A DNA stretch of 64,000 nucleotides from Leucobacter sp. UCMA 4100 (GTDB lineage: Bacteria > Actinomycetota > Actinomycetes > Actinomycetales > Microbacteriaceae). The translations under genes were made by a program, and so were the position numbers. Position 1 is the first letter of the stretch; each line of letters opens with the position of its first letter. Of this stretch, positions 18,127 through 61,216 are shown one piece after another. The stretch lies in contig NZ_JAFEUS010000002.1 in assembly GCF_027853335.1 (NCBI RefSeq), forward strand, positions 744,001 to 808,000. Reading direction: 5' to 3'. The notes below the pieces were generated by a model that saw only the letters and a list, made by a program, of their open reading frames with translations, ran no database searches and was not told where the DNA came from.

Positions 18127-18133
18127 TCCAGTT

Positions 18134-25765: not shown

Positions 25766-26254
25766 ATGACGAACAACTACGCAGACTCGAACAGCCCCAA
25801 GCTGTCTCCTTCGCCTCACAGACGAAACCCTCGTCAACGCGGAAAGGTGGTGTATTTCAAAGACGGGAAATGGGTGAAACGGTGTGCGCATTGCGATACA
25901 CAGTTCAACACTCCAGCGAAACAGAGCTTGTATTGCTCATCTGTTTGTCGACGCAAAAGCGAGGCAATAGCAAAGGGCATCAGCGCATGGATTAACAGCC
26001 GTCTTGTCACACACTGCGCCAACGAAAAATGTGGAAATGATTTCACTCCGGTGAACCGTCAGCATCGGTTCTGCTCCCCAAAGTGCCGCTCTGCGCATTG
26101 GCGAACCCAGGGCGCTCTTGCAGCATCGAAAAAATGCGCCGAGTGCAGGAAACCTTTTCTTCCAGTACGTATCTCGCATCGGTATTGCAGCAACAAGTGC
26201 AGACGCGATGCACACAGAAAACTCACGGCAGAGCAGAACGGAGCAAACTCATGA
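25766..26254 (+). CDS. Protein with three treble-clef-type zinc fingers
   Basis: 162 residues from ATG 25766. Three successive C-x2-3-C...C-x3-C units: CAHCDTQFNTPAKQSLYCSS followed by VC; CANEKCGNDFTPVNRQHRFC followed by SPKC; and CAECRKPFLPVRISHRYCSN followed by KC. Each has the pattern of nucleic-acid-binding zinc knuckles. A longer start at 25601 would add a low-complexity Ser/Leu leader. It overlaps the relaxase gene by 4 nt (ATGATGA), so it is coupled to it and may help in relaxosome assembly or regulate the operon. Confidence 0.7.
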   Translation: MTNNYADSNSPKLSPSPHRRNPRQRGKVVYFKDGKWVKRCAHCDTQFNTPAKQSLYCSSVCRRKSEAIAKGISAWINSRLVTHCANEKCGNDFTPVNRQHRFCSPKCRSAHWRTQGALAASKKCAECRKPFLPVRISHRYCSNKCRRDAHRKLTAEQNGANS

Positions 26255-29200
26255 TGACAATGACTCGAATAGGGGCAAGCCGTGACGCGTGGGGCTACCT
26301 CCTCAACACGGTCGTCGATGCTCAGGGCGAAGAACGTGCTCATTCAAAAAGCTCTTACTACACAGGGGATGGAACACCACCGGGAAGTTGGATTGGCCAA
26401 GGTGCGGCTACGCTCGGGCTGACGGCAGCTCACCCAGCCTCAGAGAGTGAACTCAAAGCATTGTTTGGTGAGGGTGCACACCCGGTCACCAAAGTACCTC
26501 TTGGTCGCGGCTTTGACGTATCCACCTCGCTCGAGGAGCGCGTTCAAGCCCGGCTCACGCAAGTCCTCACAGAAGCATCGGAGCACATTGCTTCCGTCGA
26601 CGTCGACAAGCTGGCAACAGAAATTACTCAAGAAGAACTCCAGAAACCGCAAAAAGAGTCGGTCGCCGGTTTTGAGTTTGTTTTCTCCCCGCCTAAAAGT
26701 GTGTCTTCATGGTGGGCTATAGCTGACCCGGATCTTAAATCGACGATTCAAGAAGCGCATAGCGCGGCTATCGCGTCAGCCGTAGCGATGCTCGAAACAG
26801 ATGTGGTCCGCACTCGTACTGGGATGCAAGGTATCGCCCAAGTCGAAACGAGTGGAATCACTGCTGCCCTCTTCGACCACTGGGATTCCCGTGAAGGAGA
26901 CCCACAACTTCACACACACATGCTTTTGTCGAACAAAGTACAGGCTGCCGACGGAAAATGGAGAACCATAGACTCTCGTGCGCTTTATCCTGCTGTGTCC
27001 ACGGCTGGGGCTCATTACGACACTGTACTCATGGATGAATTGTCTCAGCGGCTTGGGGCTGATTGGACCACGCAAGATGTGCTTGAGCACCCTCAGGAAT
27101 ATCAAGCATGGCTTTCTCGTCAACGGAGAGTAGATTCGCCTGCCGGACGGTTCCAGTTTTCTCTAGACCGAGGAACGAAACGCGGCTCTATTAAATGGCA
27201 ACTAGCGGGTATCCCTCACAGCCTCAATGCAGAATTTTCACAACGCTCTGAGGCCATTCGAGAGGCGAAAGAGAAACGCATAGCTGACTATGTCGCAAAG
27301 CATGGACACGCTCCATCCCCCCAGCAGATCATCAAGTTCAGGCAACAGGCGACGCTCAGTACCAGAGGCGCGAAGATTATCCATTCGTTGAAAGACCTCA
27401 CGCAAAGCTGGCGTCAACGCGCGAAACCACATATCGGTGATTCATTTTTGGCAGCAGACCGGCTCGTCAAAGAAGGAGAAAAACGACTCGCAGATTACCC
27501 GCTCTGGTCTTTCCGTCAAGACGATATTTCTATCGAAGACGAAGAGGAGGCGGCATCCTTTGCGTTGAGTGTGCTTGCAGAAGAACGCTCCACTTGGCGA
27601 CGCACGAACGCAGAAAAGGCAGTGTATGACGCCACCGCGCACTGGAGATTCCGCTCTGACGCTGACCGGCGCGAGACTGTGAAACGCATCACTGAGCGGG
27701 TACTTTCGAAAGCTGTACCGCTTACCCCTACAAACACCCGACGAACACCGACCAGGTTCCAGACACAGGATGGGGCCACCCATTTCCAGCCAACGGCTCA
27801 CGACCTCTACACCACAACAGAGGTCTGGGACGCAGAGGAGCGACTATTGGAAGCCGGAAGAAGAACTGACTGGATCACCGTTGACGAACAGATCGTGACG
27901 GGCCTGATAACCGCACCCACTGGCGAAGAGCAGCTCATTCTTTCGGCCGACCAATCAGAAGCCGTCACGAACATCACGCAGTCGGGAAGGCTCGTTGACG
28001 TTCTCGTGGGACCGGCAGGCGCAGGGAAGACGACAAGCCTTGAAAAGCTCCGCGAGATTTGGGAAACCCAGTACGGACCGGGCAGTGTTCGCGGTCTTGC
28101 CCCGACTGCTCGCGCAGCAGAAGTCCTCGCAGAATCTCTCGGCATCGCAACCGAGAACACCGCTAAGTGGCTGCACGAAACGAACCAGGGAACGAGCAGC
28201 CGTGAGGGGTTCAACTATTCGCTGAACGCTGGCGATCTCCTTATCGTAGACGAAGCATCTATCGCAGGCACCATCGCGCTCGATACTCTCCGGTCCCAAG
28301 CCGAAGAGGCTGGAGCGAAGCTTCTTCTCGTGGGCGACTGGGCACAGCTTGCAGCAATCGACGCAGGCGGAGCTTTTGGTCTCCTTGCAGCTGACCGTCC
28401 AGACGTCGCAGAACTCTCCTCAATCCATCGGTTCAAAGCTGACTGGGAAGCGGACGCCTCCAGGCTTCTCCGACTCGGCCGCAGCGATGGTCTCGAAGCG
28501 TATATTGAAAACGATCGTATCGAGTGGGGGCTCGACGAAACAATCATTACTGCCGCCGTTGACGCGTGGAAACATGACGAGACGACACCGAAGAGCGACA
28601 GTGACGCGACACTCACGTCGCTCCTCATCGCGCCAACAAACGACATGGTCGAAAGACTCAACGACATCGCACGCCAATGGCGCGTCAGTATCGGTGCTGT
28701 TGACGCTTCAGAAACTGCAGAGATTGCATCGGGTGTCGCGTCACCAGGCGACAGAATTGTGACGCGACAAAATGCTAGACACCTCAAAACTGACCATGAC
28801 CGCTGGGTCAAGAACAACGACGAATGGGTGATTAAGGCCGTCGATCAAAAAACTGGCGACATTACTGTGTCGTCTGGAGAAGAGACAGTGACGCTTCCTG
28901 CATCATATTGCCGGGAGCATGTACAGCTCGCCTACGCGACAACAGCGCACCGTTCTCAGGGCCGAACCGTCGACACAGCCCACACCATCGTTGACAGCAG
29001 CGCGTCACGAGAAACGTTCTATGTCTCCATGACGCGAGGCAAAGCACTCAACAAGGCCTACGTCATCATCGACGAGGAAGGAGCCCTTGGCGAAAAGCAA
29101 AACACTGGCATGGTGAAAACTTGGAGGGAAGTACTCGATGGAGTGTTGAAGCAGCGCGGGGGAGACCTCGCTGCACACGACACACAGAAACTCGAAGCAG

Positions 29201-30180
29201 AACGCTTGGGCTCCATCACCCAACTGTATGCCGAATACCAAACGCTCATGAGCCACGCTTTTGCCGAGGAATGGCTCGACGTCCTCAAACAACTCAATGT
29301 TGCGACAGATGAGTCAATTGATCTCCCCTCTCTCGGTCCCCTCATGGCAAACATGAGCCGAATCGAGAAGTTGGGTTATGACGTTCCTGAAACACTGAAC
29401 AACTTACTCACAACGAGAGAGATTAGCTCGAGCCACGATCCCCTTTCAGTTCTGCATTGGCGTACCAAACAGTTTGTCGATGCCGCTGCAGAGAACAGTT
29501 TGCATGGACACCGGTTCGCGCCATTGCTCGATCAGTTCGATATTCAGTTCAATGAAGGCACAACGCATCTACAAGAGCGCCGTTTCTACCGGTCGCTCGA
29601 ATTGCTCGAACGTTCAGGACGAGATGCTGAAGAGGAACTTCGCGAAATTCTGCTAACTACCGATCGGGCGAGTATCGCGAATCTCACTACTTATCTCAGC
29701 TCACGCATAAATCGGCTCGGAGTCAGTGACGAGCACGGGTCACTTGGCTCTCTGAAGAGCCATGCAAACGTTCAACTCAAGGTTGCTGGTCTGCTCGACG
29801 TTGCACCGCAGGTTCGAGATAACGACTTCTTAGCCGCTCTGAAAGATCGAGAAGAAGCGATCCAGCTTCGAGCTGAACTGATTCTTGATACAGCCATCGC
29901 AGAAGACCAACCGTGGGTGAAAGCTCTCGGAGAGCCTTTGCCAGGAGGCGAAGCCCAGTGGAGGCAGGATGCGGTTCGGGTTGCGTGTTATCGCGACCTT
30001 TACGGTGTCGATAGCCACCACCTAGTTGGGGCTCCAGAGCCACAAAACCATGTACGGACTGAACATCGCAACATGGCGTTTGCGCCTTTCCGTGACTCAT
30101 TTGAAGCCGTTAGACAGCAGCAGAGCACAGCAGGGCACTTTATCCACGAAGAACAGCAGTCACGACAACTCCGCTACTAG
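26251..30180 (+). CDS. MobF-family relaxase with C-terminal helicase (TraI/TrwC-like)
   Basis: 1309 residues from ATG 26251 (GGAG 7 nt upstream). Relaxase domain: tyrosine pair Tyr36-Tyr37 (SYYTGDG), then the metal-binding three-His motif with His210, His221 and His223 (FDHWDSREGDPQLHTHMLLS). RecD2/TraI-like helicase: Walker A VGPAGAGKTTSLEK (about 586), Walker B LLIVDEAS (about 663), and YATTAHRSQGRTVDTAH near 910. The last ~350 residues are charged and helical. It nicks oriT, binds the 5' end and unwinds DNA for transfer. A bidirectional terminator follows. Confidence 0.95.
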   Translation: MMTMTRIGASRDAWGYLLNTVVDAQGEERAHSKSSYYTGDGTPPGSWIGQGAATLGLTAAHPASESELKALFGEGAHPVTKVPLGRGFDVSTSLEERVQARLTQVLTEASEHIASVDVDKLATEITQEELQKPQKESVAGFEFVFSPPKSVSSWWAIADPDLKSTIQEAHSAAIASAVAMLETDVVRTRTGMQGIAQVETSGITAALFDHWDSREGDPQLHTHMLLSNKVQAADGKWRTIDSRALYPAVSTAGAHYDTVLMDELSQRLGADWTTQDVLEHPQEYQAWLSRQRRVDSPAGRFQFSLDRGTKRGSIKWQLAGIPHSLNAEFSQRSEAIREAKEKRIADYVAKHGHAPSPQQIIKFRQQATLSTRGAKIIHSLKDLTQSWRQRAKPHIGDSFLAADRLVKEGEKRLADYPLWSFRQDDISIEDEEEAASFALSVLAEERSTWRRTNAEKAVYDATAHWRFRSDADRRETVKRITERVLSKAVPLTPTNTRRTPTRFQTQDGATHFQPTAHDLYTTTEVWDAEERLLEAGRRTDWITVDEQIVTGLITAPTGEEQLILSADQSEAVTNITQSGRLVDVLVGPAGAGKTTSLEKLREIWETQYGPGSVRGLAPTARAAEVLAESLGIATENTAKWLHETNQGTSSREGFNYSLNAGDLLIVDEASIAGTIALDTLRSQAEEAGAKLLLVGDWAQLAAIDAGGAFGLLAADRPDVAELSSIHRFKADWEADASRLLRLGRSDGLEAYIENDRIEWGLDETIITAAVDAWKHDETTPKSDSDATLTSLLIAPTNDMVERLNDIARQWRVSIGAVDASETAEIASGVASPGDRIVTRQNARHLKTDHDRWVKNNDEWVIKAVDQKTGDITVSSGEETVTLPASYCREHVQLAYATTAHRSQGRTVDTAHTIVDSSASRETFYVSMTRGKALNKAYVIIDEEGALGEKQNTGMVKTWREVLDGVLKQRGGDLAAHDTQKLEAERLGSITQLYAEYQTLMSHAFAEEWLDVLKQLNVATDESIDLPSLGPLMANMSRIEKLGYDVPETLNNLLTTREISSSHDPLSVLHWRTKQFVDAAAENSLHGHRFAPLLDQFDIQFNEGTTHLQERRFYRSLELLERSGRDAEEELREILLTTDRASIANLTTYLSSRINRLGVSDEHGSLGSLKSHANVQLKVAGLLDVAPQVRDNDFLAALKDREEAIQLRAELILDTAIAEDQPWVKALGEPLPGGEAQWRQDAVRVACYRDLYGVDSHHLVGAPEPQNHVRTEHRNMAFAPFRDSFEAVRQQQSTAGHFIHEEQQSRQLRY

Positions 30181-30226: not shown

Positions 30227-33200
30227 TCAGTAACCTACCCGAGGAGTTTGCGGTAACGGTTTATGAACAGTCGGCGTTCCAGGAACGGCTTGCTTCGGAG
30301 TTGCCTCCTCTTGAAGTTGCGCTTCCAACGCGTCAAGACGTGTCTTCTTGGTGTTGAACTCCGCTTGTTTCGGCCAGGGTACCTCCGAGATCTGCCGCAA
30401 TTCTTTCGCATCGTTGGACCGTGCAACGACGAGATCTCGATACTTCTCAACCAAGTGGGGAACGGATTGAGCTCGCGTTTCGAACCTTGCTGCGTTTGAC
30501 CCCGTAGCGTCACCAGTCACGACGGATAGTTTCACTTCGAAACTCAACGCAGAAGGAGCACCAGGATCTTCAAACACCACTATCGGGTCATCTCTTTTCG
30601 CGACATTATGCTTCAGCCTTGTCGCCCATTCAACACCGCCCACGGTAACCGTCAGCTCGACAGGGGCTGGGTAACGTGCCGTATGCTCCGACAGATGCTG
30701 CCGTTTCATACGAGCCTGCGTGACAAGCTCAGATAACCGTTCAGAAAACGCTTTCCTCGAAGTCATAACTACAGGGTGCCGATACACATTTTCTTGCAGT
30801 GTTCCACGGAACGAATCACCATTGGTACTGACCAACTTTGGAACAAGGTCTTCTAGGTGGCTGAGGTCACGCTGATACATAGCCATTTGCTGTTCAGCAG
30901 CCTTTTGCCGTTCGGTTGCGGCGGTAAGCATTCGGTTATGAGAACGGTGCTGGCGACCTAGCTTCTGCACTTCTTGTTTAAGATTTGCTACTTCAAGAAT
31001 TCGCATATCTCCAAGCGTCACAGCCTGCATTTCAGAGAACTGGAGCGCTTGCGTGCCAGAGTCATCGATCTCCCTGACATCAAGACGACGTGACAAAACT
31101 TGCTCGATAAACTGAGCCTTTCTCGCAAGCGTTCCCCACATATAGGCATCAAATGACCCCTCGGTGGAGTAACGGTAGATCTGTACGTCAGAGTTTTGGT
31201 TTCCCTGCCGAATAATCCGCCCCTCGCGTTGCGTCACATCAGCAGGCCGCCAAGGAGCATCTATATGGTGCAGGGCAACAGCACGGGTCTGCACGTTGGT
31301 CCCGATACCCATTTTGTCGGTTGATCCAATAAGTACGTCGACGCGGCCGTCTCGACATTGCTGGAACAACTCAGCTTTCGCTTGATCGTTACTTGCATCA
31401 TGAACGAAACGGACACGGTCTGCCTTCATGCCTTTGTCCACGAGCAGTCGGCGAAGCTCGTTGTACACATCGAACGCGCCGCCCTGCTTCGGAGTACCAA
31501 GGTCAGAGAAAACGATCTGAAGACCCCCAAGCGCTTCAGACGGTTCCCCCCATTCATCGAGATATTCGTTCCCTCGGTTCCTCTCCCACTCTTCAAAAAT
31601 AGTGTCTGCAACGACTTCGATTTTTGTAGTCTCGCTTTCAGTTGGCCCGTCACCTCCTCGGAGCCTAGGGTCCAAAGCGACTGCTCGGCCGTCAGAGGTG
31701 ATTTTCAACATATTGTCCTCTTCAGGCTCGACCATCCGGTCTCGCACGAGAACGGCACGCTCCACAATGGTTTCCATGCCGAGCTGCTGCGCTTCCGTAG
31801 GTTCTACGGCCACCATTATTGGTGTGCGTTCTCCTTCCTCGTTGAGCGCAAGAGTTGGTACAGCAAGGTTCAGATCTGCCTGAGTTTTAACGTCACCGGG
31901 CGTATGCCACATCTGCAAAAGCTCTGGAAGATTTCGGAACTTCGTCGTACGGGTTTTGATCTGGAATCCGTTGCCCTCAGGTTTTGCTTCGACTGCAGTC
32001 GTCTGTTCGGTGAACTGCTTTGCCCAATCATCGGCCCGGAACACTTGCGCATCTTCGAGGAGGTCTGGTCTTAGGTACCGCATCATGACATACATTTCAA
32101 TCATCGAGTTTGGCAATGGTGTCGCAGTCGCCAATGTAGCTACTCGGCTCTGTTTAAGGTGGTCTCGGTGATACCACAGCTTCATATCGAGGTCTTGAGC
32201 GCGTTGCGCCCCTTGTGCCCTGTTCAAGTCATCGATACTCGAGTTGACTGCCAAGTTCTTGAAATAATGGGCTTCATCGATGCAGAGATAATCAATGCCA
32301 GTTTCTTCCCAGGAGATGCCTTCATCGTGATCAATGTCGAGCATTTTGCTGAGTTTTTCTTCTTGGGTAGCGAGCTGGCGCTCAATCGTTTTCACTGAGT
32401 TCTTCGAAAGATCTGAGTTCAACTTTTCGAGGTGTACCGCTTGCAGTTCTTCAAGCTTCTGTTTCGCATATTCTGCTTGAGCTTTCCCAAGTCCAACTTT
32501 CTCAAACGCTGTGTGCGTCATGATCACGGCATCCCAGTCACCGGTCTGAGCACGGGCAATAAACAATTTTCGTGCGTCGCGGCCGCCGGCACTGCTTACG
32601 TCTTGGCTTCCCGCAGCGAGAACTTTAGCTCGAGGGTAAATCTGTTTGAATTCCCGTGTGAACTGTTCTAGCATCTGGTTCGGGACCACGATTGCAGGCT
32701 TTTGAACAAACCCCAACCGTCTGAGTTCCATCACGCCCATGACCATCTCGGCCGTCTTACCTGCGCCAACTTCGTGAAAGAGACCGACAGATGGTTCTGC
32801 AAGCATGCGAGCCACCGCAGCATATTGGTGAGGGTGCGGCGTGAACGTTGCGGCTTTCCCTGGCAGTGACAGCGTTATATCGTCGTATGACCGCAGCACG
32901 ATTCCGTTATACAGATCGTTGTACCGAGTTTGGAGTTCTTCAGCTCGAGCTGCGTCGCTCCACAGCCAGTCTTGGAAAGTCTCATGAAGTTCGCCCGCTT
33001 TTTCTTGCAGCATCTCAGTGGCTTCTTGGTCGACGAAGGTACGGTCATCGACGGTATACGTGACCTGGAGTTTTTCGCCGTTCAATACTTTTTTCACAAC
33101 GACATACGCCGACATTGCCGTGATATCGCTCCGCACGCTCCACCGCGCTTCGCTCACCGAACCTGTTCGGCCGCGCTGTCTGAAATTCCATTTCCCGTCG

Positions 33201-35743
33201 ATGTACTCTATTGCCGAAATGTCAGTGGTGAGAACGTGTTCCAAGAACTCTTTCACATCCCGGCGGGGGACCCAGGAAGCCCCAAGTTTCGTGTCGATTT
33301 CGGCGGGCCCAAGCTCGACCGGAATAACTTTTTGAAGTGCTGCAACGTGCACATTGAATCGGTCATCCTCTTCAGCAAGATCCATTGCTTCGTATCGTTT
33401 CTGCCGGACATTGCCGGATAGATACTCTTCACGTGAGATATATGTTGACCGATCCTTGGGAGATAGAAACACGCGATCTCCAAGCGCCTCGGGAACAGCA
33501 TCTTCGTCCAGGTCGAGCAGTTCAGCCACAAGAGCCACATCAATCACGCCTAGCCTGTCGAGGCTTACCTGAATCGCGTCTTCAGGAGTTTCAACGTGTG
33601 AAATAAGTGTTTGCGCGCCGACAACGCGTTCAAAGAAGATCGTCGCTTTCCGAGCTTCGTGCGTGTCCTCGTTGTATCGCTCGAGAGCCACCACCGTCGC
33701 ATAGTGCGGGTCGACGCGAAAAGCGCGCAGCGCTGCTGGATACTTTCGTGTAATGAGAGCATCTTTTCCGGGACGTTCTCTGACTGTTTCGCTGAATCTA
33801 CCAAGAGGCCCGAACTGAGCGAGATAGCTGTCGTAGTTTCGGTTAAGTTCTGCCCGCAAAGAAGCGATCTGAGGGGTGTCTTCCGCCGTTGCTGCTTCAG
33901 CATTCAATAATGCCACCGAAGCATCGCGCATCTGCAACAGCGCGCGCATTTCGGCCTCGGCGTTCTTAGGTATTTGGAGTGCATCTGGCCCTTCGATACC
34001 GACTTGCATGAGGTGCCCCGATTCGTCTTCGTAGATTCGGCCCACCAGTTTCTCTGGGTCCTGCACTGCTGCTGCGACCGGCCGATCCGTTACCGTACGG
34101 TTCGTCGCGTTCCAGCCTTTTCCAGCTTCGAGAGCTTCTGCACTGATCTGCTTGAGCGCTGTGCCGAGTTGAACCGCGACTGACTCTGGAGCGGTGTTGG
34201 GCGTTCTGACGGTTATTTCTGGCCCAAATTGCCCAGACCTGATGCGCAGGTCACCGAGGACGTGCTCGGGACGATTGATGAAGTAGGGATTCACGAACGC
34301 TTCACCGTCTGCGGTTGTAAACGGCACTGTTTTAACCCACGTAGGTTCGGTGTGGGGAGGTTCTCCCTCGTGCCGTTTGAATACGAGCACATCGATGACC
34401 GCTTCGGTTCCTGCTACTGCACCGTGTGCACCTTGCGGCATTCTCACTGCACCCAACAGTTCGCCGTATTGTGCAATATGGCGCCGGGCTGAACTGGTTT
34501 TGCTGTCCATCGTCCACCGTGAACTCATCACGGCGACGATTCCACCAGGCTTAGTCAGCCGTAACGACTTGACGATGAATGCGTTGTGCAAAGAAAGATT
34601 AGCTGCGTTGTAAGCCGGATCAAACGGCTTTACCGGGGAGAAAGGAACGTTACCGATCGCTGCATCAAAACCGTCTCCTTCGAGCCGTGTTTCCGCGAAC
34701 GACTCATTCTTGACGATTGCGTCGGGGTGGAGCAGCGTAGCAATTTGCGCGGTGGTCGGGTCGAGCTCGATCCCAACCAGGTTGTCTCCGTCACGTGCTT
34801 TTCCAAGGAAGTTACCTGTACCGCAACCTGGTTCCAAAATGGTACTTCCGGCTGGAACGCCAAGTTGATCGAACATTGACCACATCGCGTCTACGTAGAG
34901 TGGGTCTGTGTAGTGGGCGTTGAGCACAGTGCGTCTTGCAGCGCCCCATTCTGCACCGGTCCAGAGCTTCTCAAGAGTCGCACGCTCTGTCTCGAATTTC
35001 TTTGACCTAGGGTCAAAGAGTTCGGGGATGGCTCCCCACCCAGGGAAACGGCGGAGAGCTAGTCGCTCTTCTTCGTTCGGTTCCCTCCGCTCGAGTAGAA
35101 GCTGCTGGAGAGTAGCGACCGCTTCGACTCCGCTTCCCACACGGGATTCATTCCCGGTTCTTGCTCGAGGAACAAACTGAGCTTCGCGAGCATCAAAGCT
35201 TGTACCATCGTTGGCTGCGGTGCCTGAATGTTGCTGTCCTCGAGTGTCATCTCCGCCCACCGGATCAGCACTGACTCCAGCTCGGGTGATGCGTAGAGTT
35301 GCTCGTCCGCTTTCGGCCCCATCGTTGTGAATGCTGTCGCTTCCAGGAGCGAGCTTACGGCTTCCCCGTTCTCCAGGCAGTTCTTCGCGTGTTCTTCCGC
35401 CAGCTCCTTGTACGCTTCCATCTGCTCCAGAGAGTGCAGTTTCAGTTGGTGCCGATGCAAGAGTTTCAAGAGAGCGACTGCTTCGGGTTTCTCCGTCAAG
35501 TCCTCTGTGCTGATCGTCAGATCTTCCAACCAGTCCGGCACCGTTTCCTCGCGTGCCGCTATCTCTCTTGCGAGCATCAGATCGTTGTTGATTTGTCCCA
35601 CTCGCTCCAGATAGTTCTTGGTCTCCGGCCAATGCCGGCGGTCTCGTAGCGGCTGCATCATTGGTCTCGTCTCCTACTTCTTCAAACAAACCGAACAGGT
35701 CAAAAGCGAGTTGGGTGCTCGCAACTTTGGGTTTTCTTGCCAT
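30227..35743 (-). CDS. Giant N6-adenine methyltransferase / SNF2-type helicase fusion (DarB-like)
   Basis: 1838 residues from ATG 35743 (MARKPKVASTQLAFDLFGLF), GGAGG about 10 nt upstream. Residues 30-230 are disordered Gly/Arg/Ser/Glu-rich. Methyltransferase: SAM motif ILEPGCGTGNFLG (about 303) and catalytic NVPF (about 364). Helicase: GLFHEVGAGKTAEMV (about 990), DEAH box YLCIDEAHYFKN (about 1154), and GRIIRQGNQ (about 1509). The same fusion occurs in phage P1 DarB, which protects incoming DNA from type I restriction, and in many plasmids and ICEs. The likely role is anti-restriction or DNA processing during transfer. The disordered part overlaps a second gene at 35059-35661. Confidence 0.88.
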   Translation of the reverse strand: MARKPKVASTQLAFDLFGLFEEVGDETNDAAATRPPALAGDQELSGASGTNQQRSDARKRDSGTRGNGAGLVGRSDDQHRGLDGETRSSRSLETLASAPTETALSGADGSVQGAGGRTREELPGERGSRKLAPGSDSIHNDGAESGRATLRITRAGVSADPVGGDDTRGQQHSGTAANDGTSFDAREAQFVPRARTGNESRVGSGVEAVATLQQLLLERREPNEEERLALRRFPGWGAIPELFDPRSKKFETERATLEKLWTGAEWGAARRTVLNAHYTDPLYVDAMWSMFDQLGVPAGSTILEPGCGTGNFLGKARDGDNLVGIELDPTTAQIATLLHPDAIVKNESFAETRLEGDGFDAAIGNVPFSPVKPFDPAYNAANLSLHNAFIVKSLRLTKPGGIVAVMSSRWTMDSKTSSARRHIAQYGELLGAVRMPQGAHGAVAGTEAVIDVLVFKRHEGEPPHTEPTWVKTVPFTTADGEAFVNPYFINRPEHVLGDLRIRSGQFGPEITVRTPNTAPESVAVQLGTALKQISAEALEAGKGWNATNRTVTDRPVAAAVQDPEKLVGRIYEDESGHLMQVGIEGPDALQIPKNAEAEMRALLQMRDASVALLNAEAATAEDTPQIASLRAELNRNYDSYLAQFGPLGRFSETVRERPGKDALITRKYPAALRAFRVDPHYATVVALERYNEDTHEARKATIFFERVVGAQTLISHVETPEDAIQVSLDRLGVIDVALVAELLDLDEDAVPEALGDRVFLSPKDRSTYISREEYLSGNVRQKRYEAMDLAEEDDRFNVHVAALQKVIPVELGPAEIDTKLGASWVPRRDVKEFLEHVLTTDISAIEYIDGKWNFRQRGRTGSVSEARWSVRSDITAMSAYVVVKKVLNGEKLQVTYTVDDRTFVDQEATEMLQEKAGELHETFQDWLWSDAARAEELQTRYNDLYNGIVLRSYDDITLSLPGKAATFTPHPHQYAAVARMLAEPSVGLFHEVGAGKTAEMVMGVMELRRLGFVQKPAIVVPNQMLEQFTREFKQIYPRAKVLAAGSQDVSSAGGRDARKLFIARAQTGDWDAVIMTHTAFEKVGLGKAQAEYAKQKLEELQAVHLEKLNSDLSKNSVKTIERQLATQEEKLSKMLDIDHDEGISWEETGIDYLCIDEAHYFKNLAVNSSIDDLNRAQGAQRAQDLDMKLWYHRDHLKQSRVATLATATPLPNSMIEMYVMMRYLRPDLLEDAQVFRADDWAKQFTEQTTAVEAKPEGNGFQIKTRTTKFRNLPELLQMWHTPGDVKTQADLNLAVPTLALNEEGERTPIMVAVEPTEAQQLGMETIVERAVLVRDRMVEPEEDNMLKITSDGRAVALDPRLRGGDGPTESETTKIEVVADTIFEEWERNRGNEYLDEWGEPSEALGGLQIVFSDLGTPKQGGAFDVYNELRRLLVDKGMKADRVRFVHDASNDQAKAELFQQCRDGRVDVLIGSTDKMGIGTNVQTRAVALHHIDAPWRPADVTQREGRIIRQGNQNSDVQIYRYSTEGSFDAYMWGTLARKAQFIEQVLSRRLDVREIDDSGTQALQFSEMQAVTLGDMRILEVANLKQEVQKLGRQHRSHNRMLTAATERQKAAEQQMAMYQRDLSHLEDLVPKLVSTNGDSFRGTLQENVYRHPVVMTSRKAFSERLSELVTQARMKRQHLSEHTARYPAPVELTVTVGGVEWATRLKHNVAKRDDPIVVFEDPGAPSALSFEVKLSVVTGDATGSNAARFETRAQSVPHLVEKYRDLVVARSNDAKELRQISEVPWPKQAEFNTKKTRLDALEAQLQEEATPKQAVPGTPTVHKPLPQTPRVGY
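35059..35661 (-). CDS. Overprinted gene nested in helicase gene, alternative frame
   Basis: 200 codons in another frame on the same strand. ATG 35661 has its own ribosome site (AGGAG, 9 nt upstream). The protein is balanced, acidic and helical (ETKNYLERVGQINNDLMLAR, LKLLHRHQLKLHSLEQMEAY, KELAEEHAKNCLENGEAVSS). Third positions are strongly GC-rich as in host genes. The big gene read through the same stretch has weak third-position GC and Gly/Arg/Ser low complexity. The nested frame ends exactly where the methyltransferase gene's conserved part begins. No family recognised. Alternatives are chance or a frameshift artefact. Confidence 0.6.
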   Translation of the reverse strand: MMQPLRDRRHWPETKNYLERVGQINNDLMLAREIAAREETVPDWLEDLTISTEDLTEKPEAVALLKLLHRHQLKLHSLEQMEAYKELAEEHAKNCLENGEAVSSLLEATAFTTMGPKADEQLYASPELESVLIRWAEMTLEDSNIQAPQPTMVQALMLAKLSLFLEQEPGMNPVWEAESKRSLLSSSFYSSGGNRTKKSD

Positions 35744-35762
35744 TATGGCCACTACCTCCGAC

Positions 35763-35781
35763 ATCACGTGGTCAACGTGAT
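35763..35781. promoter_or_regulatory. Palindrome upstream of helicase gene
   Basis: ATCACG-TGGTCAA-CGTGAT, 6-bp arms with a 7-bp centre, 20 bp upstream of ATG 35743; a candidate operator between the SSB-gene terminator and the helicase gene. Confidence 0.35.
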
Positions 35782-36738: not shown

Positions 36739-37137
36739 TCATCTCTCTCGAATTAGAACGTCATTAGATTTGTTCTCCCACCGCAGTGCTTTCATACCTT
36801 GTCGCTGAGCCGTGGCACGGGGCATCCGCTGGTAGGTGGGAGATTCAACTATCGCGTGAAGCCGATAATGGCATTCTGCGCACATGCCCGCTAGATCAGT
36901 GTGTGTTTCTTGACCTAACCGGTCGTAGAACACATGGTGCAGGTGATCATCCAACGACCATTCCTTACCGCAACCGCCAAAACAGAAAATTGTTGCTTGC
37001 CCTGTGCGCTGCTTTTCTTCACGTTCCCACTCCGCTCTGCGGGCAAACCAAGCAGGAGATTCAATATATTTGGCATACTTTGCACGGCGGTTATTCCTCT
37101 TTCTCGACCGCTGAGTTCCCCTTTTCATTTCACGCAT
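36739..37137 (-). CDS. HNH-like zinc protein
   Basis: 132 residues from ATG 37137, overlapping the VirD4 stop by 8 bp. A basic N-terminus (REMKRGTQRSRKRNNRRAKY) is followed by CFGGCGKEWSLDDHLHHVFY then TDLAGMCAECHYRLH. This is the C-x2-C...HH...C-x2-C-H...H arrangement of HNH nucleases (catalytic His in LHHVFY). It may be a small endonuclease or a structural zinc protein; the catalytic Asn is not obvious. Also found next to transfer genes on other Gram-positive elements. Confidence 0.65.
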   Translation of the reverse strand: MREMKRGTQRSRKRNNRRAKYAKYIESPAWFARRAEWEREEKQRTGQATIFCFGGCGKEWSLDDHLHHVFYDRLGQETHTDLAGMCAECHYRLHAIVESPTYQRMPRATAQRQGMKALRWENKSNDVLIRER

Positions 37138-38914
37138 TGCTGTACTCCTTAATCTGTTCAGCGAATTGGGAAGTAGCCGCAATCTGTTGGCTGAGACGGG
37201 ATGCGTTCGCCTGACAGTCCTTGAAACGGCGGTGCTCGTTAAATGGCCGCATCTCTGGGATCACCGCTGGGAGGTTTTTGTAGAACAACAGGCAGTATCG
37301 GTTTTCCAGCTCGCGAATCTGCTTGCCGGTGAGGATCGCTTGTTTCTCTCTACTCACTGAAACAGAATTTTGGCCTTTGCCCCAGCTATGCGAATCCCGT
37401 TGGACCCACATATCTCCGATGAGCTGCTCCATGTCTCTGAGATCATCAGATTTCGACCCTCCTGGAAGGATGATCTTTGCGGCGGCCGCGTCCCACAAAG
37501 TTTCAGCATTTTCAGCACCCCACTGCGCAAGCTGCCCCTTCGACTGGAACACGACGACACCGACACGGCCACGGCCACCGCCTGCAGTGATCAGCTCGTA
37601 TAGTCCCTGATACTCAAAGTTGCCCGCTTCATCGAGCAGATACGTCACTGGAGGGTCAAGCCTCGTACCAGGCATCGCGTCTGCGATCCCCTTAGTAACG
37701 AAGTCCATTTCGGCCAGGAGCCCGTCGATAATGCGAACGTAACCACCGGTTGTCTGCTTATCGCCAACGAGGTACAGAGTCTCTTTCTCGAACACGAACC
37801 GCACCGGGTCAAACTGTTCATCATTTTTACCCGGTTTCATCCAGGCTCTGGCTGACCCAGACTCAAGAAAGGCAAGAACTGTGCTGAGCGTTCCCCAAGA
37901 AGTCACACGCTGCTCCGGAGGCTGCGTAATGATTTGCTCAAGGTGAGCAGCATGCTCGCTCAACCCTCGTTCGTGTTCACGGATCAGCTTCACCGCATTC
38001 ATTGCTTCTTGCGGGTTCGATACCCACTCCCACACATCGTCAACTGTTTTGTTGCCGAGCGCGGCCGCGTGGAAGAGATGGGCGGCGAGTTGCTGGCCGA
38101 GCGTATCCCAGTGGCCACCGTTGCTCGTTGACCCTGAGAACGAGTCTGAAGGTATCAGCGCTTTGATACGGCGAATCAGAGTTTCTTCATCTTCGCACCC
38201 TTCTATCGGGTTCCAGCGTAAAACATGGCCCAGGCTCTCTCCGCCTATGACGCCTGGCGCGAATACCCAAACACGGCGGCCGCCACGTTGACGTTCCTCA
38301 ATCGTCATGGTCGCGTTATCCATCTTCGATGACGTGGTGATGACTGCGCCTGGCGCATCGAGAAGCCAATTCAGAACAATGTGCCAGCCTTTCCCTGAAC
38401 GGGAGGGGCCAATGACGATGATCGGGTCTTCAATTTTCAGCCAGATCTCAACGCCTTGGAATTCACCAAGCCGGTAGCCAACGTGACTCGCTTTCATCAA
38501 AGCCGGGTCTAATGAAGGCCGAAAACGAGCACCTGCTTCCAGTAATTTTTTCTCTCCGAGCTGCTTTCTAGCCTGGCTGGGTTTCGCAAGCCCTTCTGTC
38601 AGTTGTGGGTTCTTCTTCCTTTTGAAATGCAGAACCATTAAGAAAATAACTCCTCCAACAAAACCCACAATCAACCCCAGAACGGCTGCCCAATGAGCCG
38701 CATCAGATCGTCCTCCCGTTACTTGTGTCGGAGTAGACGTGCCCCATAGCTTCACCAAAGCAATCAATGCGGGTTTGTCTTCTGCGCGGAAGAGGCTGGG
38801 GTTTGTGACAGCGATCGCGAAGAGCTGTGGCACCATTACCAAACCAATTACTGCGGCGATCACTCCCGCAAAAGCAAGGCCTGCTGGGAGCGTTGACCAA
38901 GTGTATTTCGGCTT
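37130..38914 (-). CDS. virD4: Type IV coupling protein (VirD4/TraG family)
   Basis: 594 residues from ATG 38914. Two N-terminal membrane helices (LPAGLAFAGVIAAVIGLVMV and WAAVLGLIVGFVGGVIFLMV), then the hexameric ATPase: Walker A VIGPSRSGKGWH (about 169) and Walker B PVTYLLDEAGNF (about 424). It carries the relaxase-DNA complex to the secretion channel. An upstream in-frame start at 38962 is open but lacks a better ribosome site; 38914 overlaps the preceding gene by ATGA. Confidence 0.93.
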   Translation of the reverse strand, partial: KPKYTWSTLPAGLAFAGVIAAVIGLVMVPQLFAIAVTNPSLFRAEDKPALIALVKLWGTSTPTQVTGGRSDAAHWAAVLGLIVGFVGGVIFLMVLHFKRKKNPQLTEGLAKPSQARKQLGEKKLLEAGARFRPSLDPALMKASHVGYRLGEFQGVEIWLKIEDPIIVIGPSRSGKGWHIVLNWLLDAPGAVITTSSKMDNATMTIEERQRGGRRVWVFAPGVIGGESLGHVLRWNPIEGCEDEETLIRRIKALIPSDSFSGSTSNGGHWDTLGQQLAAHLFHAAALGNKTVDDVWEWVSNPQEAMNAVKLIREHERGLSEHAAHLEQIITQPPEQRVTSWGTLSTVLAFLESGSARAWMKPGKNDEQFDPVRFVFEKETLYLVGDKQTTGGYVRIIDGLLAEMDFVTKGIADAMPGTRLDPPVTYLLDEAGNFEYQGLYELITAGGGRGRVGVVVFQSKGQLAQWGAENAETLWDAAAAKIILPGGSKSDDLRDMEQLIGDMWVQRDSHSWGKGQNSVSVSREKQAILTGKQIRELENRYCLLFYKNLPAVIPEMRPFNEHRRFKDCQANASRLSQQIAATSQFAEQIKEYSNA

Positions 38915-39408
38915 CATGAGATACCTCGGTAGGTAAAGATTTTCAATTCGTGTCCAACACAATCGCTCATCAATGCGGCTGACTTCGCGACCACAGATAA
39001 TGCATACTTCACCGGTAGCGCGGCTCTCCCTCGATGTTTCACCGCATATTCACTGAAAATATCGGCGATGCCGGCGTTGAAAGATAGGTAAGCTCTTATC
39101 TCTTCGAGCTGGTTGCTGTTCTCAAGGTAGTTTCCGAATGTACGGAGCCCCCTCACTGCTGCCGCGGGCACCGTGATGGGCATTCCGTCAGCCATGTTTG
39201 CCACCCTGTGGTGTCGTTCAAGCTGTAGACGAACTTCATTCGCTGCGTCCAAATGCTGTCCTAGATCTGCCTCTAAAAGCCTGAGTCCTACCATGTGCAG
39301 CACACCGGTGTGCACTTCCCACACCTCGGCGAAAGTGGGGTCGTCAGGAGTCGGTGGGAGATCCATTCCGCGCGAAAAGGATGTATAGATTTCTTCGACG
39401 CCGTTCAT
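38914..39408 (-). CDS. Hypothetical protein between VirD4 and VirB4-like genes
   Basis: 164 residues, soluble and helical (LLEADLGQHLDAANEVRLQL, AVRGLRTFGNYLENSNQLEE). Overlaps both neighbours by 4 nt. No signal peptide or catalytic motif. Its fixed place in the transfer operon suggests a small cytosolic accessory of the coupling complex. Confidence 0.7.
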   Translation of the reverse strand: MNGVEEIYTSFSRGMDLPPTPDDPTFAEVWEVHTGVLHMVGLRLLEADLGQHLDAANEVRLQLERHHRVANMADGMPITVPAAAVRGLRTFGNYLENSNQLEEIRAYLSFNAGIADIFSEYAVKHRGRAALPVKYALSVVAKSAALMSDCVGHELKIFTYRGIS

Positions 39409-40892
39409 GCAGCATCTTCCTCCTGCTTTACCATCTGTCTATCGGTGTTGAACACTTCTCGCTCCCATGGAGTCGTTGTCGGGTTTCCGTCGACCACGTA
39501 GGAGCGGTTTCTCATTTTGATGAGGAATTGACCACGTTGCAGGCCGCCAATAGCGGCCGCTTCTGCGGTGGTGTATGTGCCGTCTTTCACCGCGTTATTA
39601 AGCGCCGACTGAGGCTGGTTAAAGCACACTCGGTTGGCGTAACCGCGCAGCAATGATTTCGCGAGCTCACGTTCTTTGGAGCCTTCCGCGCCCACCGCAT
39701 CAAAGTCACCGCCCTCATGCACAATAAGGACCATTGAGATGCCGTACTCACCAGAGAGTTTCAGCTGTTCTTGGTGAGCTTCGAGCGCGGCCACGCTTTT
39801 CATATCTCGCCAGCCTTCTTCTCGAATCACGAAATACCGGCGCCCTGAACTCTTGTTCGAGATCGTGTTTTGCACCCAAGCATTCGACACCGCCTGAGCT
39901 ACTGAAAGAGCGCCAGATCCACGTTGACTAATGGCAGACGTGTCGATCACCGTATACGGGCAATCAGGTCGCAATGTTACCGAGGAATGCACGTCGAACA
40001 TTTCACCGAGGTCGCCTTCAACAAGTCTTCGAAGTCCGTCCCACAAGTCGTCAGCGTCTCGCTTTTCGTAGTGGTTGCCGCCCTGGGCCTGAACAATGTT
40101 CTCTGGGCTAAGCTCTTGCCACACGTCACGTATAACGGGCCTGTCATCGGTCTTTCGCACAACTTCATCGACGGCCCAGTCCAGGAGCGAAGCTTCTCGA
40201 GCGGTTACTGCTCTCTCTCCTGGGTTCAGCAAAGTCGCAATCTGCTGAAGCACAGCGTTCCGTCCCGCTTTCACACGCGATTGATACGCGTCAACAGTTT
40301 CTCCATTTCGACGCTCTGGCTTCTCTAGCGGGTTAATGCGGATGTCGCTACCGTACGCACCCAGCTCAAACACGTCTCCGCCTAGCGCCTGGGCGACCAC
40401 GCCATGCTCACCTTTAGAATCTGAGGTATTGATCGCGTAATGACCAACCTCAACGAGGAGGGCGACAAGCCGTTTGATCCAGAAGCTTTTCCCTTGCCGC
40501 AATGACCCTTCAATCAGCAAGTTCGGAGAACTAACAAGCCCGGAGGAATAGAGAGTCCAAGGATCAAACGTGAAAGCACCGCCCCCAGACATCATCTCGA
40601 TGCCAATAATTGGGCCAGCAGGGTCGTGAATATCTGCGGCAGCAAATGGATTTGCGGCCGCGATCTGGAAACCAGTAGCTCGATGAAATGGTCGCCTGAG
40701 TGGAAGCGTCCAAAAAGATGGAAGAGTGGGCAACTTTCTGTGCAGCGTTGGGAGCGGATCGACAATGCCAGTAGCAGCGGCATCGTCCTCTGCTTGGGGT
40801 CCAGAAAGGCTCTTCAGGTATTCTTCGAGTTCTTTGCGTTCCTTCTTCGACAATCCTGCTGGCGCGAAAGTAATCGCCTGTTTCGCCATGCT
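39405..40892 (-). CDS. virB4: VirB4/TraC-like secretion ATPase, C-terminal ATPase part
   Basis: 495 residues from ATG 40892 (MAKQAITFAPAGLSKKERKE). Walker A LLIEGSLRQGKSFWIKRL (about 129), followed by the VirB4-like pattern LLVEVGHYAINTSDSKGEHG and, near the end, NRVCFNQPQSALNNAVKDGT. It lacks the usual N-terminal half, which is supplied by the separate SCO6880-like protein at 40892. It powers channel assembly and substrate translocation. Confidence 0.85.
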   Translation of the reverse strand, partial: SMAKQAITFAPAGLSKKERKELEEYLKSLSGPQAEDDAAATGIVDPLPTLHRKLPTLPSFWTLPLRRPFHRATGFQIAAANPFAAADIHDPAGPIIGIEMMSGGGAFTFDPWTLYSSGLVSSPNLLIEGSLRQGKSFWIKRLVALLVEVGHYAINTSDSKGEHGVVAQALGGDVFELGAYGSDIRINPLEKPERRNGETVDAYQSRVKAGRNAVLQQIATLLNPGERAVTAREASLLDWAVDEVVRKTDDRPVIRDVWQELSPENIVQAQGGNHYEKRDADDLWDGLRRLVEGDLGEMFDVHSSVTLRPDCPYTVIDTSAISQRGSGALSVAQAVSNAWVQNTISNKSSGRRYFVIREEGWRDMKSVAALEAHQEQLKLSGEYGISMVLIVHEGGDFDAVGAEGSKERELAKSLLRGYANRVCFNQPQSALNNAVKDGTYTTAEAAAIGGLQRGQFLIKMRNRSYVVDGNPTTTPWEREVFNTDRQMVKQEEDAA

Positions 40893-42394
40893 TATTTCAT
40901 CCCTTCCCCGCACGGGTATGCGATATTCATGAGAGCTTCGCTCTGTTGCCAAGGCACGAGCCTTGTTTCGAGTCCGGTCGCAGCACACGCGCTCACAATG
41001 GATGCTGCCTCTTGTTCGAGTGAGTCTTGGTCTGTGGCCGTAACAGTGATGAACGCTGAAAATCTCAGTTCTCCTTGTCCTGCAACGAGGTCCCGCTCAT
41101 GCGCTTCAATCGCGTGCCAGTCAGCCTCATTTGCAGCTGACTCAGGCTTTCCTGCTTTGTGCCGGAGGTTCTGGTTTGTCAACCAGGTGCGTTTTTCGTC
41201 TTCGAGCCGCTTCATTGCTTTCCCAATTGGTACCGGAGAGGCAACCAGCATGAGAGTGTGCCGCACCGGCCTCCCGCTTTGGGCACGATTCATCACGAGT
41301 CTCGACATAAAACCTGGATAGGTGTCGTATCGTGGCCACTCATGAATCCAAAAGGTGCGGTGCCATCCTGAGTCAGTTTCAACATAGTTTCGATGCTCTT
41401 CAAGAAGCATCGGGGTTGCTGCGTGCGGTGCGACCCCTTCATGCTCGGTGCCGGTTCGAACGTCCACAGCTTCTTGCGAAGCAGGGTCAATGATGCTGCG
41501 ACCCCAGGCTCCCCATTCGCGAGCATTAATCCACGCAACTCGGCTAAAGCCTGCTTGCAGAAGAGCTTCGTGGACAGTCTGCATTTCGAGCTCGGCGAGT
41601 TTCAACATGCCACGTTTGCCTCCGCCGTACCCTTTCACGAGGTCGTTGACATGTCCTGCAAGCCGAAAAGTGATCGCAAGTTGCGTGCGGTGCAGCACCA
41701 CCTGTTCCCGTGCTAACTCCAAAGCATGCAAATAAGACGCCTGTGCTGCAGTGCCCTGTTTTCCGCGTTCATCGAAATAACGTTGCTCGGCCGCGACGGT
41801 TCCTGGTCTTGTTTGCTCGAGCGTTGTTACTCGCACGATGTGTTCTTTTTGGGTAAAGGAGCCAAGAACTTTAGCCCACTCAAAGATGAGCCAATCTCTT
41901 TCCCCTTCTTCAAGGGTCGATGGAACCCCCACCTGTGGAAGCCCCATACCAGCAGTGGCGATAAGACAAGTTATCGTTGCTGTCTGTTTTAGAGCGTCCC
42001 AAACGACACAAGCTCCGGTATCGGTTTCATACACAAAAAGCCGACCTTGGCGACCTGGAATATCGAGAGCAGCCTCAGGCTCAATCTTTTTCGCTTCCGG
42101 TCTCGCTCGGTATTTCGTGGCTCCAAGTAGTTTTCGCATGTTTCCTCCAAGTTCACGTCCAACGTGCGTAATCAACGCTTCTCCATGCATTTTCAGAAGG
42201 GATAAAGCTGCCAGCCCGCCAGTCAGTGGCAGAAACAGTAAAGCGACGAGAAAGCCTTTCGCGATAACCATGATCCCTGTCCACAAGACAGCAACCGTCA
42301 GCCCGGTAAACCCCGCTGCACTGATGCCATAAACGAGGCCTTGTGACGGCAGCCGACTAAAGCTCATCGGCTGTGAGGTGTAATTAGTAGTCAT
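40892..42394 (-). CDS. SCO6880-like protein (PrgI domain plus VirB4 N-terminal part)
   Basis: 500 residues. Two N-terminal membrane helices (GLVYGISAAGFTGLTVAVLW and VIAKGFLVALLFLPLTGGLA) are the PrgI-type membrane anchor. They are followed by an alpha/beta region matching the VirB4 N-terminal domain (LFVYETDTGACVVWDALKQT, FWIHEWPRYDTYPGFMSRLV). Overlaps the next gene by ATGA. Actinobacterial transfer systems often carry this half of VirB4 as a separate protein; together with the product of 39405 it forms one functional ATPase. Confidence 0.85.
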   Translation of the reverse strand: MTTNYTSQPMSFSRLPSQGLVYGISAAGFTGLTVAVLWTGIMVIAKGFLVALLFLPLTGGLAALSLLKMHGEALITHVGRELGGNMRKLLGATKYRARPEAKKIEPEAALDIPGRQGRLFVYETDTGACVVWDALKQTATITCLIATAGMGLPQVGVPSTLEEGERDWLIFEWAKVLGSFTQKEHIVRVTTLEQTRPGTVAAEQRYFDERGKQGTAAQASYLHALELAREQVVLHRTQLAITFRLAGHVNDLVKGYGGGKRGMLKLAELEMQTVHEALLQAGFSRVAWINAREWGAWGRSIIDPASQEAVDVRTGTEHEGVAPHAATPMLLEEHRNYVETDSGWHRTFWIHEWPRYDTYPGFMSRLVMNRAQSGRPVRHTLMLVASPVPIGKAMKRLEDEKRTWLTNQNLRHKAGKPESAANEADWHAIEAHERDLVAGQGELRFSAFITVTATDQDSLEQEAASIVSACAATGLETRLVPWQQSEALMNIAYPCGEGMK

Positions 42395-60082: not shown

Positions 60083-60393
60083 GGGAGAACATTCCCTTCC
60101 CGCAGGAAGTCAATCGCGATGTCATGCATCTGCAGCGTGGCATACGCCGCGACCATAACAATGCCGATCAGTGTGAAAAACACTGTCCCGCCTGCAAGCC
60201 TCTTCGTGCCCAATGGAGCAAGTGCTGCAACTTTCCCTGCAAGCACCAACGAGGCGATACCGAGTACCACCAGAATGATGACGCCGAACTGTGCTGCAAT
60301 ACTCCCCACCGCTTGGACAAGCGATTGTGGGAGGATTGAAGCCTCGAACGCAGGTGCAACTGCGCGCGAGAATATGTCTATTGGATGAGACAT
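60079..60393 (-). CDS. VirB2-like small membrane protein
   Basis: 104 residues. A hydrophilic start (MSHPIDIFSRAVAPAFEASI), then two long hydrophobic helices (FGVIILVVLGIASLVLAGKV and GTVFFTLIGIVMVAAYATLQ) with a short basic loop (LGTKRLAGG). The layout is like TrbC/VirB2 pilins of T4SS, similar to the 43729 product. First gene of the minus-strand run to 55704. Confidence 0.6.
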   Translation of the reverse strand: MSHPIDIFSRAVAPAFEASILPQSLVQAVGSIAAQFGVIILVVLGIASLVLAGKVAALAPLGTKRLAGGTVFFTLIGIVMVAAYATLQMHDIAIDFLREGNVLP

Positions 60394-60414
60394 AAAATAT
60401 CCTTTCTTGGATAG

Positions 60415-60450
60415 GAACCCTCGGAGCTGGAACTCCGGGGGTTCTTTTTT
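60415..60450 (+). terminator. Hairpin between Xre gene and membrane-protein gene
   Basis: GAACCC-T-CGGAG pairs with CTCCG-G-GGGTTC, followed by TTTTTT on the plus strand; it overlaps the stop of the minus-strand Xre gene. The T-run is on the plus side, so it may instead act as an attenuator for minus-strand transcripts. Confidence 0.5.
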
Positions 60451-60649
60451 ACGCGTCGACGAAAGATTCTTCGAGCGCAGACATGATTAGTCCGTAATCG
60501 TCTACGTGCATGGGTGTCACCCCTCGAAACCTGCGCCTGACCCACTGAAAGCTCTTACCGATCTTTCGAGCGACCCACGCGTAATCACGTTCCTCACGCT
60601 CCAAGAGCGCGGTAAGTTCCGCTATTGCTTCATCGTTTGTTCGTGCCAT
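60449..60649 (-). CDS. Small Xre-like regulator (left of operator)
   Basis: 66 residues from ATG 60649 (MARTNDEAIAELTALLEREE). A compact helix-turn-helix (YAWVARKIGKSFQWVRRRFR) is followed by a short dimer helix. Divergent from the Xre gene at 60758 across a 108-bp operator region; together they resemble a phage-like switch at the ICE end. It reads toward the replication and surface genes and may be an activator or Cro-like repressor. Confidence 0.75.
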   Translation of the reverse strand: MARTNDEAIAELTALLEREERDYAWVARKIGKSFQWVRRRFRGVTPMHVDDYGLIMSALEESFVDA

Positions 60650-60664
60650 GTTCAAACACTAACA

Positions 60665-60746
60665 CAAATGGAACGTTTCCGTTCCGCTGGAACATTTGCC
60701 CCTGGGAGTCTTTCAACGTCACAACTTCTTGCATCAGGAACCATTT
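60665..60746. promoter_or_regulatory. Operator region between divergent Xre genes
   Basis: Four related half-sites: AAATGGAAC and the inverted CGTTCC (pair GGAACG-TTTC-CGTTCC, 60670-60685), GGAACATTT (60689-60697) and GGAACCATTT (60737-60746). Each is a version of AAATGGTTCC or its complement. The spacing suits two dimer sites controlling both promoters. Confidence 0.65.
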
Positions 60747-60757
60747 AGAATAAAAAC

Positions 60758-61093
60758 ATGGGAGAACTACAGCTAGAACACACAATTGATGAAATCATTG
60801 GCTATCGCATCAACCATCTTCTTTTCATCAACCGGGCAACCCGCAGAAGCGTTGCCTTACAATTAGGCATTTCTCATACCGCCGTAAACAACAAACTAAA
60901 CGGCGTAAGTAAATGGAGCGCCGAGGAGGTATTTCTCCTCAGTGCAGCTTTCAAAACCCCGGTTGGCTACTTCTACGGTGAAGGAGCTTTGGAAAATGCA
61001 TTGCCGCTGGACGAAGAAACCCCCGGTTCCGAAGAACCAGGGGTTTCTCTGATGTGGGCCCAGCCGGGCTCGAACCGGCGACCCGCGGATTAA
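60758..61093 (+). CDS. Xre-family regulator whose 3' end crosses the attachment core
   Basis: 111 residues. A helix-turn-helix occupies most of the first 75 residues (GYRINHLLFINRATRRSVAL, QLGISHTAVNNKLNGVSKWS, AEEVFLLSAAFKTPVGYFYG). From about residue 87 it is translated from the terminator and antisense tRNA sequence (EETPGSEEPGVSLMWAQPGS then NRRPAD), and its stop TAA (61091-61093) contains the base where the host tRNA differs from the element copy. In the excised circle the same frame would read TAT and continue for 26 residues (YKSDVSDVIFVDFQQKTLEP then TTHLAR). Likely the repressor of excision or transfer. Confidence 0.75.
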   Translation: MGELQLEHTIDEIIGYRINHLLFINRATRRSVALQLGISHTAVNNKLNGVSKWSAEEVFLLSAAFKTPVGYFYGEGALENALPLDEETPGSEEPGVSLMWAQPGSNRRPAD

Positions 61094-61103
61094 AAGTCCG
61101 ATG
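61010..61103. other. Right attachment site of the ICE
   Basis: Repeat of 14184-14279. The element supplies the left part, including the terminator hairpin, and the host tRNA-Lys supplies the right part. The tRNA is therefore intact after integration and gets an element-derived terminator. Confidence 0.9.
61016..61047 (-). terminator. Element-supplied tRNA-Lys terminator
   Basis: GAAACCCC (61016-61023) pairs with GGGGTTTC (61040-61047), directly after the tRNA 3' end on the minus strand. It also lies inside the coding sequence of the Xre gene on the plus strand. Confidence 0.85.
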
Positions 61104-61127
61104 CTCTACCTACTGAGCTATAGGCCC
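61055..61127 (-). tRNA. tRNA-Lys (anticodon UUU)
   Basis: 73 nt. Acceptor GGGCCTA pairs with TGGGCCC; D-arm GCTC-AGTAGGTA-GAGC; anticodon arm TCGGA-CTTTTAA-TCCGC (anticodon TTT); T-arm GCCGG-TTCGAGC-CCGGC; discriminator A. CCA is not encoded. The 3' part is the integration target of the ICE. Confidence 0.95.
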
Positions 61128-61216
61128 ACCGAGTATCTTACAGGCTCCCGCCGCTCAGCAAAAACCGAGTGTGCATTCGGCGCGGTGAGCGGCGAGAGAT
61201 CCACTGATAATAACGC

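Follow-up and report, generated by a model that had tools for sequence, protein, structure and literature searches.

Our analysis of a 64,000-nucleotide stretch of Leucobacter DNA, hereafter the window, points to a conjugative element in which integration itself would set the state of a regulator. The gene of this Xre-type regulator (xre) contains the attP site, takes its stop codon from the host tRNA gene and would encode an additional C-terminal tail only in the excised circle, and we consider it probable that this arrangement works as an integration-dependent switch of an integrative and conjugative element (ICE). The layout, the reading frame and the junction are solid as sequence readings. 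A functional role of the tail in this switch is likewise likely, to judge by the related tail that another genome has at this site and by the statistics of tail end residues in relatives.

An att site inside a regulator gene

The xre gene of the integrated element lies on the plus strand at positions 60758 to 61093 (ATG at 60758, 111 aa) and runs through the attR core into a minus-strand tRNA-Lys(TTT) gene (61054 to 61127, ARAGORN) that is whole at attR. Its stop codon, TAA at 61091-61093, lies in the antisense of the tRNA anticodon loop; open reading frame, stop and core are all as the original prediction had described them. The protein matches HTH_3 below the Pfam cutoff (E 0.0041) and a transcriptional repressor in PHROG (E 1.5e-6), and a profile of this Xre family without the tRNA part (A2) matched the P22 C2 and 434 repressors in the PDB. 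The attR core (61014 to 61103), which comprises the 3' part of the tRNA and the terminator hairpin, is a near-identical copy of the attL core at 14190 to 14279. A single base had been said to distinguish the two cores, but three do (14203, 14225 and 14269), with an extra A in the left copy just outside. The first two differences are silent in the xre frame; the third, T at 14269 against A at 61093, turns the xre codon into TAT (14267-14269) in place of TAA.

In the predicted circle, a join left of 14269 adds to Xre the 26 residues YKSDVSDVIFVDFQQKTLEPTTHLAR, encoded on the plus strand at 14267 to 14347 (26 codons followed by TGA at 14345-14347), in agreement with the gain claimed earlier. attP would lie inside the xre coding sequence. 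The tail stop is followed after 86 bp by the start of the integrase gene (int) at 14434, and xre and int would be consecutive, co-directional and presumably co-transcribed in the circle. Taken alone, the 26-codon tail does not exceed what read-through by chance could produce, and its importance is argued here from relatives. That xre merely adjoins attP, its frame running into the tRNA and yielding a tail without a role, is unlikely in our estimation, and the ease with which random read-through can produce such a length is one point in its favor; another is that the window tail lacks -LAA. The tail ends THLAR, which leaves the long Xre with no ssrA-like end, and the integrase ends QLLTA rather than -LAA, so that a classic end of this kind appears to be missing from the window system. 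The -LAR ending also suits a tail that is functional without being a degron, for example through altered DNA binding or xre-int transcription in the circle; this reading, which overlaps with the switch proposed here, seems to us possible if somewhat unlikely.

A join right of 14269 would keep the xre stop. The T would then reflect drift in a displaced tRNA relic, and the circle would retain TAA and an unchanged regulator, which we hold to be highly improbable. In a genome of the same genus (G001) the tRNA-Lys site is empty, with a right flank that matches well and a left flank whose match is limited to 78 bp, and the base matching 14269 is A. Since tRNA-Lys needs an A there, the T would belong to the element, unless it is a later change in the displaced copy. 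The left att copy differs from this empty site at four places (three substitutions and the extra A), as could be expected of a drifting relic, and the core match runs 10 bp beyond 14269; both would be compatible with drift, and the related elements described below speak against it. As a side observation, the tRNA terminator hairpin (61005-61060), which is contained in both the xre reading frame and the att core, has a predicted energy of -25.9 kcal/mol (z -2.98), and the core of a sibling element also includes, by eye, a hairpin-like stretch.

Upstream of xre, a regulatory region (60650 to 60757) separates it from a small divergent gene on the minus strand (60449 to 60649, 66 aa), which has no Pfam match and has a related gene in the sibling ICE; its place corresponds to that of the Cro-like gene in mycobacteriophage BPs. 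The region contains the palindrome GGAACG-N4-CGTTCC at 60670-60685, and the sibling has another palindrome at the same place upstream of its xre, neither being significant (161 and 170 of 1000 shuffles, respectively, were equally good). No second exact copy of the palindrome was found within the window, and no sigma-70-like promoter in 60380-61160.

From these features we propose the following scheme. In the integrated state, the antisense of tRNA-Lys supplies the stop and gives a short Xre, which would be stable and would repress the divergent leftward genes for replication or transfer. Upon excision, presumably at the att site, the codon would become TAT, Xre would gain its C-terminal tail and the gene would lead into int. 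The tailed Xre would be weakened, possibly by proteolysis in relatives with -AA tails. In the circle, the leftward genes and the integrase would both be on, and re-integration would shut both off in one step.

The carrier element and its sibling in tRNA-Asn

The carrier looks like a Leucobacter ICE. It encodes a tyrosine integrase of 309 aa (14434 to 15363, plus strand, its gene being the one that follows the tail in the circle) with a match to the catalytic domain at residues 116-277 and a weak, below-cutoff match to the SAM-like core-binding domain at residues 12-81, a TrwC-type relaxase (26083 to 30180, plus strand), a T4SS coupling protein of the VirD4/TraG type (37130 to 38962, minus strand) and an SCO6880-family protein (40892 to 42394, minus strand; 221 bits, cutoff 60). 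The integrase, the relaxase, the coupling protein, the flanking att repeats and the empty site in a relative are the features expected of an ICE, and the relaxase, the coupling protein and the SCO6880-family protein would not fit carriage by a temperate phage. No relative of the integrase was found in IMG/VR. A further large open reading frame (30227-35767) matches the DISARM SNF2-like helicase DrmD weakly (50 bits against a cutoff of 610) and is perhaps cargo, as it has no match among the open reading frames of the sibling ICE.

The genome with the empty tRNA-Lys site (G001) carries this sibling in tRNA-Asn, a site that is empty in the genome of the window, with flanks matching on both sides. 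Besides int and Xre, 31 of the sibling's 47 open reading frames have collinear counterparts in the window element; their identities range over 52-100% and exceed 73% in 26 cases, against 25% for the integrases and 40% for Xre. At the DNA level, homology breaks off at 60665 and begins again at 15370. In the circle these two points enclose a single contiguous stretch, so that the exchanged unit consists of the regulatory region, xre, attP, the tail and int, and an exchange of the whole cassette argues against a tail that is a mere by-product of its position. In the sibling, the exact core match breaks two bases ahead of the xre stop codon, which makes this stop part of the host DNA; this argues against drift as the source of the read-through. 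The predicted circle form of its Xre is longer by 31 residues. Given the matching backbone, the exchanged int and Xre and the read-through in both, one backbone has been fitted with two cassettes of shared logic. The sibling integrase ends FSFAA. With respect to the sibling (G001C11), the stretch 15910-22445 has protein identities of 98-100%, the other matched open reading frames 52-97%, and the window ICE is a mosaic by this comparison, with signs of recent exchange.

Tails of close integrase relatives

Eight relatives of the window integrase were found, and the upstream regions of seven were read (L235 of G260 being already known). One of the two closest, from G075 (locus L233), is 48-49% identical to the window integrase and has the same tRNA-Lys half as the window just upstream of int, in which GAT TAT is followed by a tail in the xre frame. 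This tail, YGYDVSRVVSLDFFREEHRELAAA, shares 7 of its first 13 residues with that of the window, and their local BLOSUM62 score of 33 was matched in 1 of 5000 shuffles. The codons of the two tails agree at 9 of 13 first, 9 of 13 second and 5 of 13 third positions, although these counts are low and the DNA might also be conserved as a binding site of Int. The crossover had been placed left of 14269, and as far as sequence can tell this holds: an identical TAT that leads in frame into a related tail would be hard to explain by drift in a relic, and the related tail also speaks against one without a role. As had been suggested as a check on relatives in the same tRNA, G075 keeps both the frame and the TAT. 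Its tail ends ELAAA, which argues against a function other than that of a degron. The contig yielded no xre that could be the partner of this tail, which counts against the switch.

The other close integrase, from G213 (L232), is 47% identical, with an E-value slightly better than that of G075. No att-like tRNA half was seen upstream of its int, and a search of 80 kb revealed no tRNA-Lys core and no Xre matching the profile used here; this, too, counts against the switch. A tRNA-like half further upstream of int was recognized in L234 (by pattern) and L239 (by eye), and none was seen in L236, L237 and L238. G075 also has an intact tRNA-Lys(TTT) gene (L233, 2439-2513), situated 78 bp beyond the integrase match, and two tRNA-Lys att halves are 39 kb apart.

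Survey of related elements

Profile searches for Xre were performed in 398, 396 and 394 genomes, in partly overlapping sets. The profiles were built from members overlapping a tRNA gene; A1, which contains the tRNA part, includes one non-overlapping member, and A2 is without the tRNA part. Among the matches listed in the first search, xre ended antisense within a tRNA gene (ARAGORN) at 14 of 28 loci (28 of the 30 listed were examined, two being already known), and among those listed in the later searches at 22 of 39 (L125 was left out, and L086-L088 are repeats of earlier loci). As the profiles stem mainly from overlapping genes and the loci are those among the matches listed, these rates are not unbiased. 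When 43 regions were tested for a left att copy, 20 were positive and 23 were not, many of the latter because the contig or the fetched stretch ended.

The 20 elements occupy six kinds of tRNA gene, namely Lys(TTT), Lys(CTT), Asn, Thr(CGT), Met and Val. In every one of them, exact identity between the two cores is lost no later than the final base of the xre stop codon. The predicted circle form of Xre exceeds the integrated form in 18 elements, with a gain of 12 to 106 residues. In the two others (G579 and G432a) it is slightly shorter and no tail is gained, as might be expected if the tail had no role. Two elements (G138 and G432b) have TAT against TAA at the stop, as in the window, which again is at odds with drift. 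Relatives of the relaxase or coupling protein of the window were seen in 5 of the 20, the window element itself (WIN) included (the others being G001C11, G358, G711 and G1108).

The tails were compared in 19 non-redundant elements, G474 having been dropped since its tail is identical to that of G487. A stop codon lying wholly within the tRNA part of the core was found in none of the 19 in the xre frame, but in 4 and 8 of the 19 when the two alternative frames were read. Eight of the tails have A as their last residue and 5 have AA, compared with means of 1.8 and 0.21 in random read-outs of the same elements, where none of 2000 was as high as observed; the other frames at the same joints gave 1 of 38 in the tail-end test. 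This signal was first noticed in the first 10 elements (A in 5, AA in 4), and the later 9 gave A in 3 and AA in 1. For G406 we counted the left copy with the AA tail, the alternative copy adds one residue and would bring the totals down to 7 and 4; G457 has two left copies with the same tail and G579 two that both give the shorter form, and one was used for each. The -AA endings, far above the null, and an xre frame that stays open across the tRNA portion of the core in all 19 weigh against a tail that merely follows from the position of xre, and the enrichment of -AA across elements likewise disfavors a tail acting otherwise than as a degron. Integrases were recognized in 16 of the 20 elements. 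Of these, 10 have A and 5 have AA at the C-terminus, compared with 59 and 13, respectively, of 516 open reading frames of at least 100 aa.

In a comparison of nine tails, the summed pairwise score was above all 300 shuffles; as shuffling is a crude control, weight is placed on the G075 comparison rather than on this score. The tails of G260 and G387 are related, with 12 of 25 aligned residues identical, and their codons agree at 15, 20 and 15 of 25 first, second and third positions, a pattern in which coding constraint is not clearly marked. In five elements (G037, G487, G474, G711 and G1108), tails of 63-106 residues overlap the called start of the integrase open reading frame. Finally, G457 (L140-L141) has two Xre genes of equal score, together with a pair of att copies separated by about 14.5 kb, and looks like a case of tandem insertions in one tRNA-Lys(CTT).

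Relatives whose Xre ends before the tRNA

The original prediction had named relatives whose Xre gene ends before the att core as evidence against it, and on this point the findings are divided: four relatives do end early, while G075, as described above, keeps the frame. The four stop short of their tRNA-Lys (L190, 35% identical, and L191-L193, 45-49%, the closest found), which would suit a tail of no consequence. In L193 the tRNA-Lys is in the other orientation, and in L191 the tRNA is broken by unread bases. Distant relatives of the ICE right-end genes lie beside all four, and no window-type integrase was found near their xre. The L192 contig, the one long contig of the four, contains a distant integrase match (28%, a 443-aa frame) about 41 kb from xre and no second att copy. 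A gene of this Xre family can thus do without the tRNA overlap. Two further hits came from the same search: L194 (33%) does overlap a tRNA-Met, and L195 is the empty site. Searches with the short Xre as query gave five phage records and one plasmid record, all distant.

Relation to known systems

Integration-dependent immunity is said to have been described by Broussard in 2013 for mycobacteriophage BPs, of a kind present in clusters G, I, N and P. According to passages of two papers on BPs (PMC9262239, PMC4557955), attP lies in the repressor gene, the stop arises by a third-base change at the junction, the long repressor is degraded via a C-terminal tag, the integrase is likewise tagged, and a Cro-like gene is divergent. 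The parallel drawn earlier for an att site within a regulator appears to hold. As far as these passages go, BPs and the window ICE share an attP inside the repressor gene, an attB in a tRNA gene, a stop made at the junction by a third-base change, a repressor and an integrase that are consecutive in the circle and a divergent small gene, and the BPs tag has a counterpart in the -AA tails of several relatives of the window system. In contrast to BPs, the carrier is an ICE, the window tail is without -LAA, and the short form is here no more than the presumed active one. A modest rise of Prep activity with a stabilized long form of the BPs repressor is reported (PMC4557955), which would be in line with a tail that does more than mark the protein for degradation, whereas the short and long forms are reported there to be similar in DNA binding, which would not.

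Beyond BPs, the Bifidobacterium prophages Bb423phi2 and 689b-1 have been read in silico as cases of integration-dependent immunity, and the integrases of such systems are described as armless, in the passages available of PMC6109161. From those passages, they resemble the window in the extra C-terminal tail of the circle-form repressor and in the nearby integrase, and differ in being phages with ssrA-like tail ends. In ICEKp1, as presented in the portion seen of PMC13023037, the joined ends of the ICE also change expression beside a tRNA gene, but it is the int promoter rather than a protein end that is switched by the state. In the mainly open-access literature searched, to judge by titles and the openings of abstracts, the layout of an att site within a regulator was found in phages and in no ICE, and the passages shown of a survey of actinobacterial ICEs (PMC3218068) do not mention it.

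We lean towards a broader picture in which ICEs use integration as a commitment switch, the host tRNA providing the stop of their master regulator, and in which a cassette of control region, repressor, attP, tail and int swaps both control specificity and tRNA target at once and is shared with phages of the same order. A phage decision circuit would then have been carried over into conjugative elements, which suggests how such an ICE could sense integration without an extra sensor. With one backbone and two swapped cassettes, the sibling ICEs lend themselves directly to a test of this idea, and to judge from the survey the layout is probably common among relatives of the same order. A possible phage counterpart of the circle is the free Gordonia phage Dogfish, whose annotated repressor runs through an apparent tRNA 3' half (by eye) into a tail ending VAAA and is followed by an integrase gene whose product ends LAA. 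It looks like an unintegrated arrangement, similar to the window circle in the C-terminal tail of the repressor and the integrase nearby, and unlike the window ICE in that its carrier is a phage and its tail end ssrA-like.
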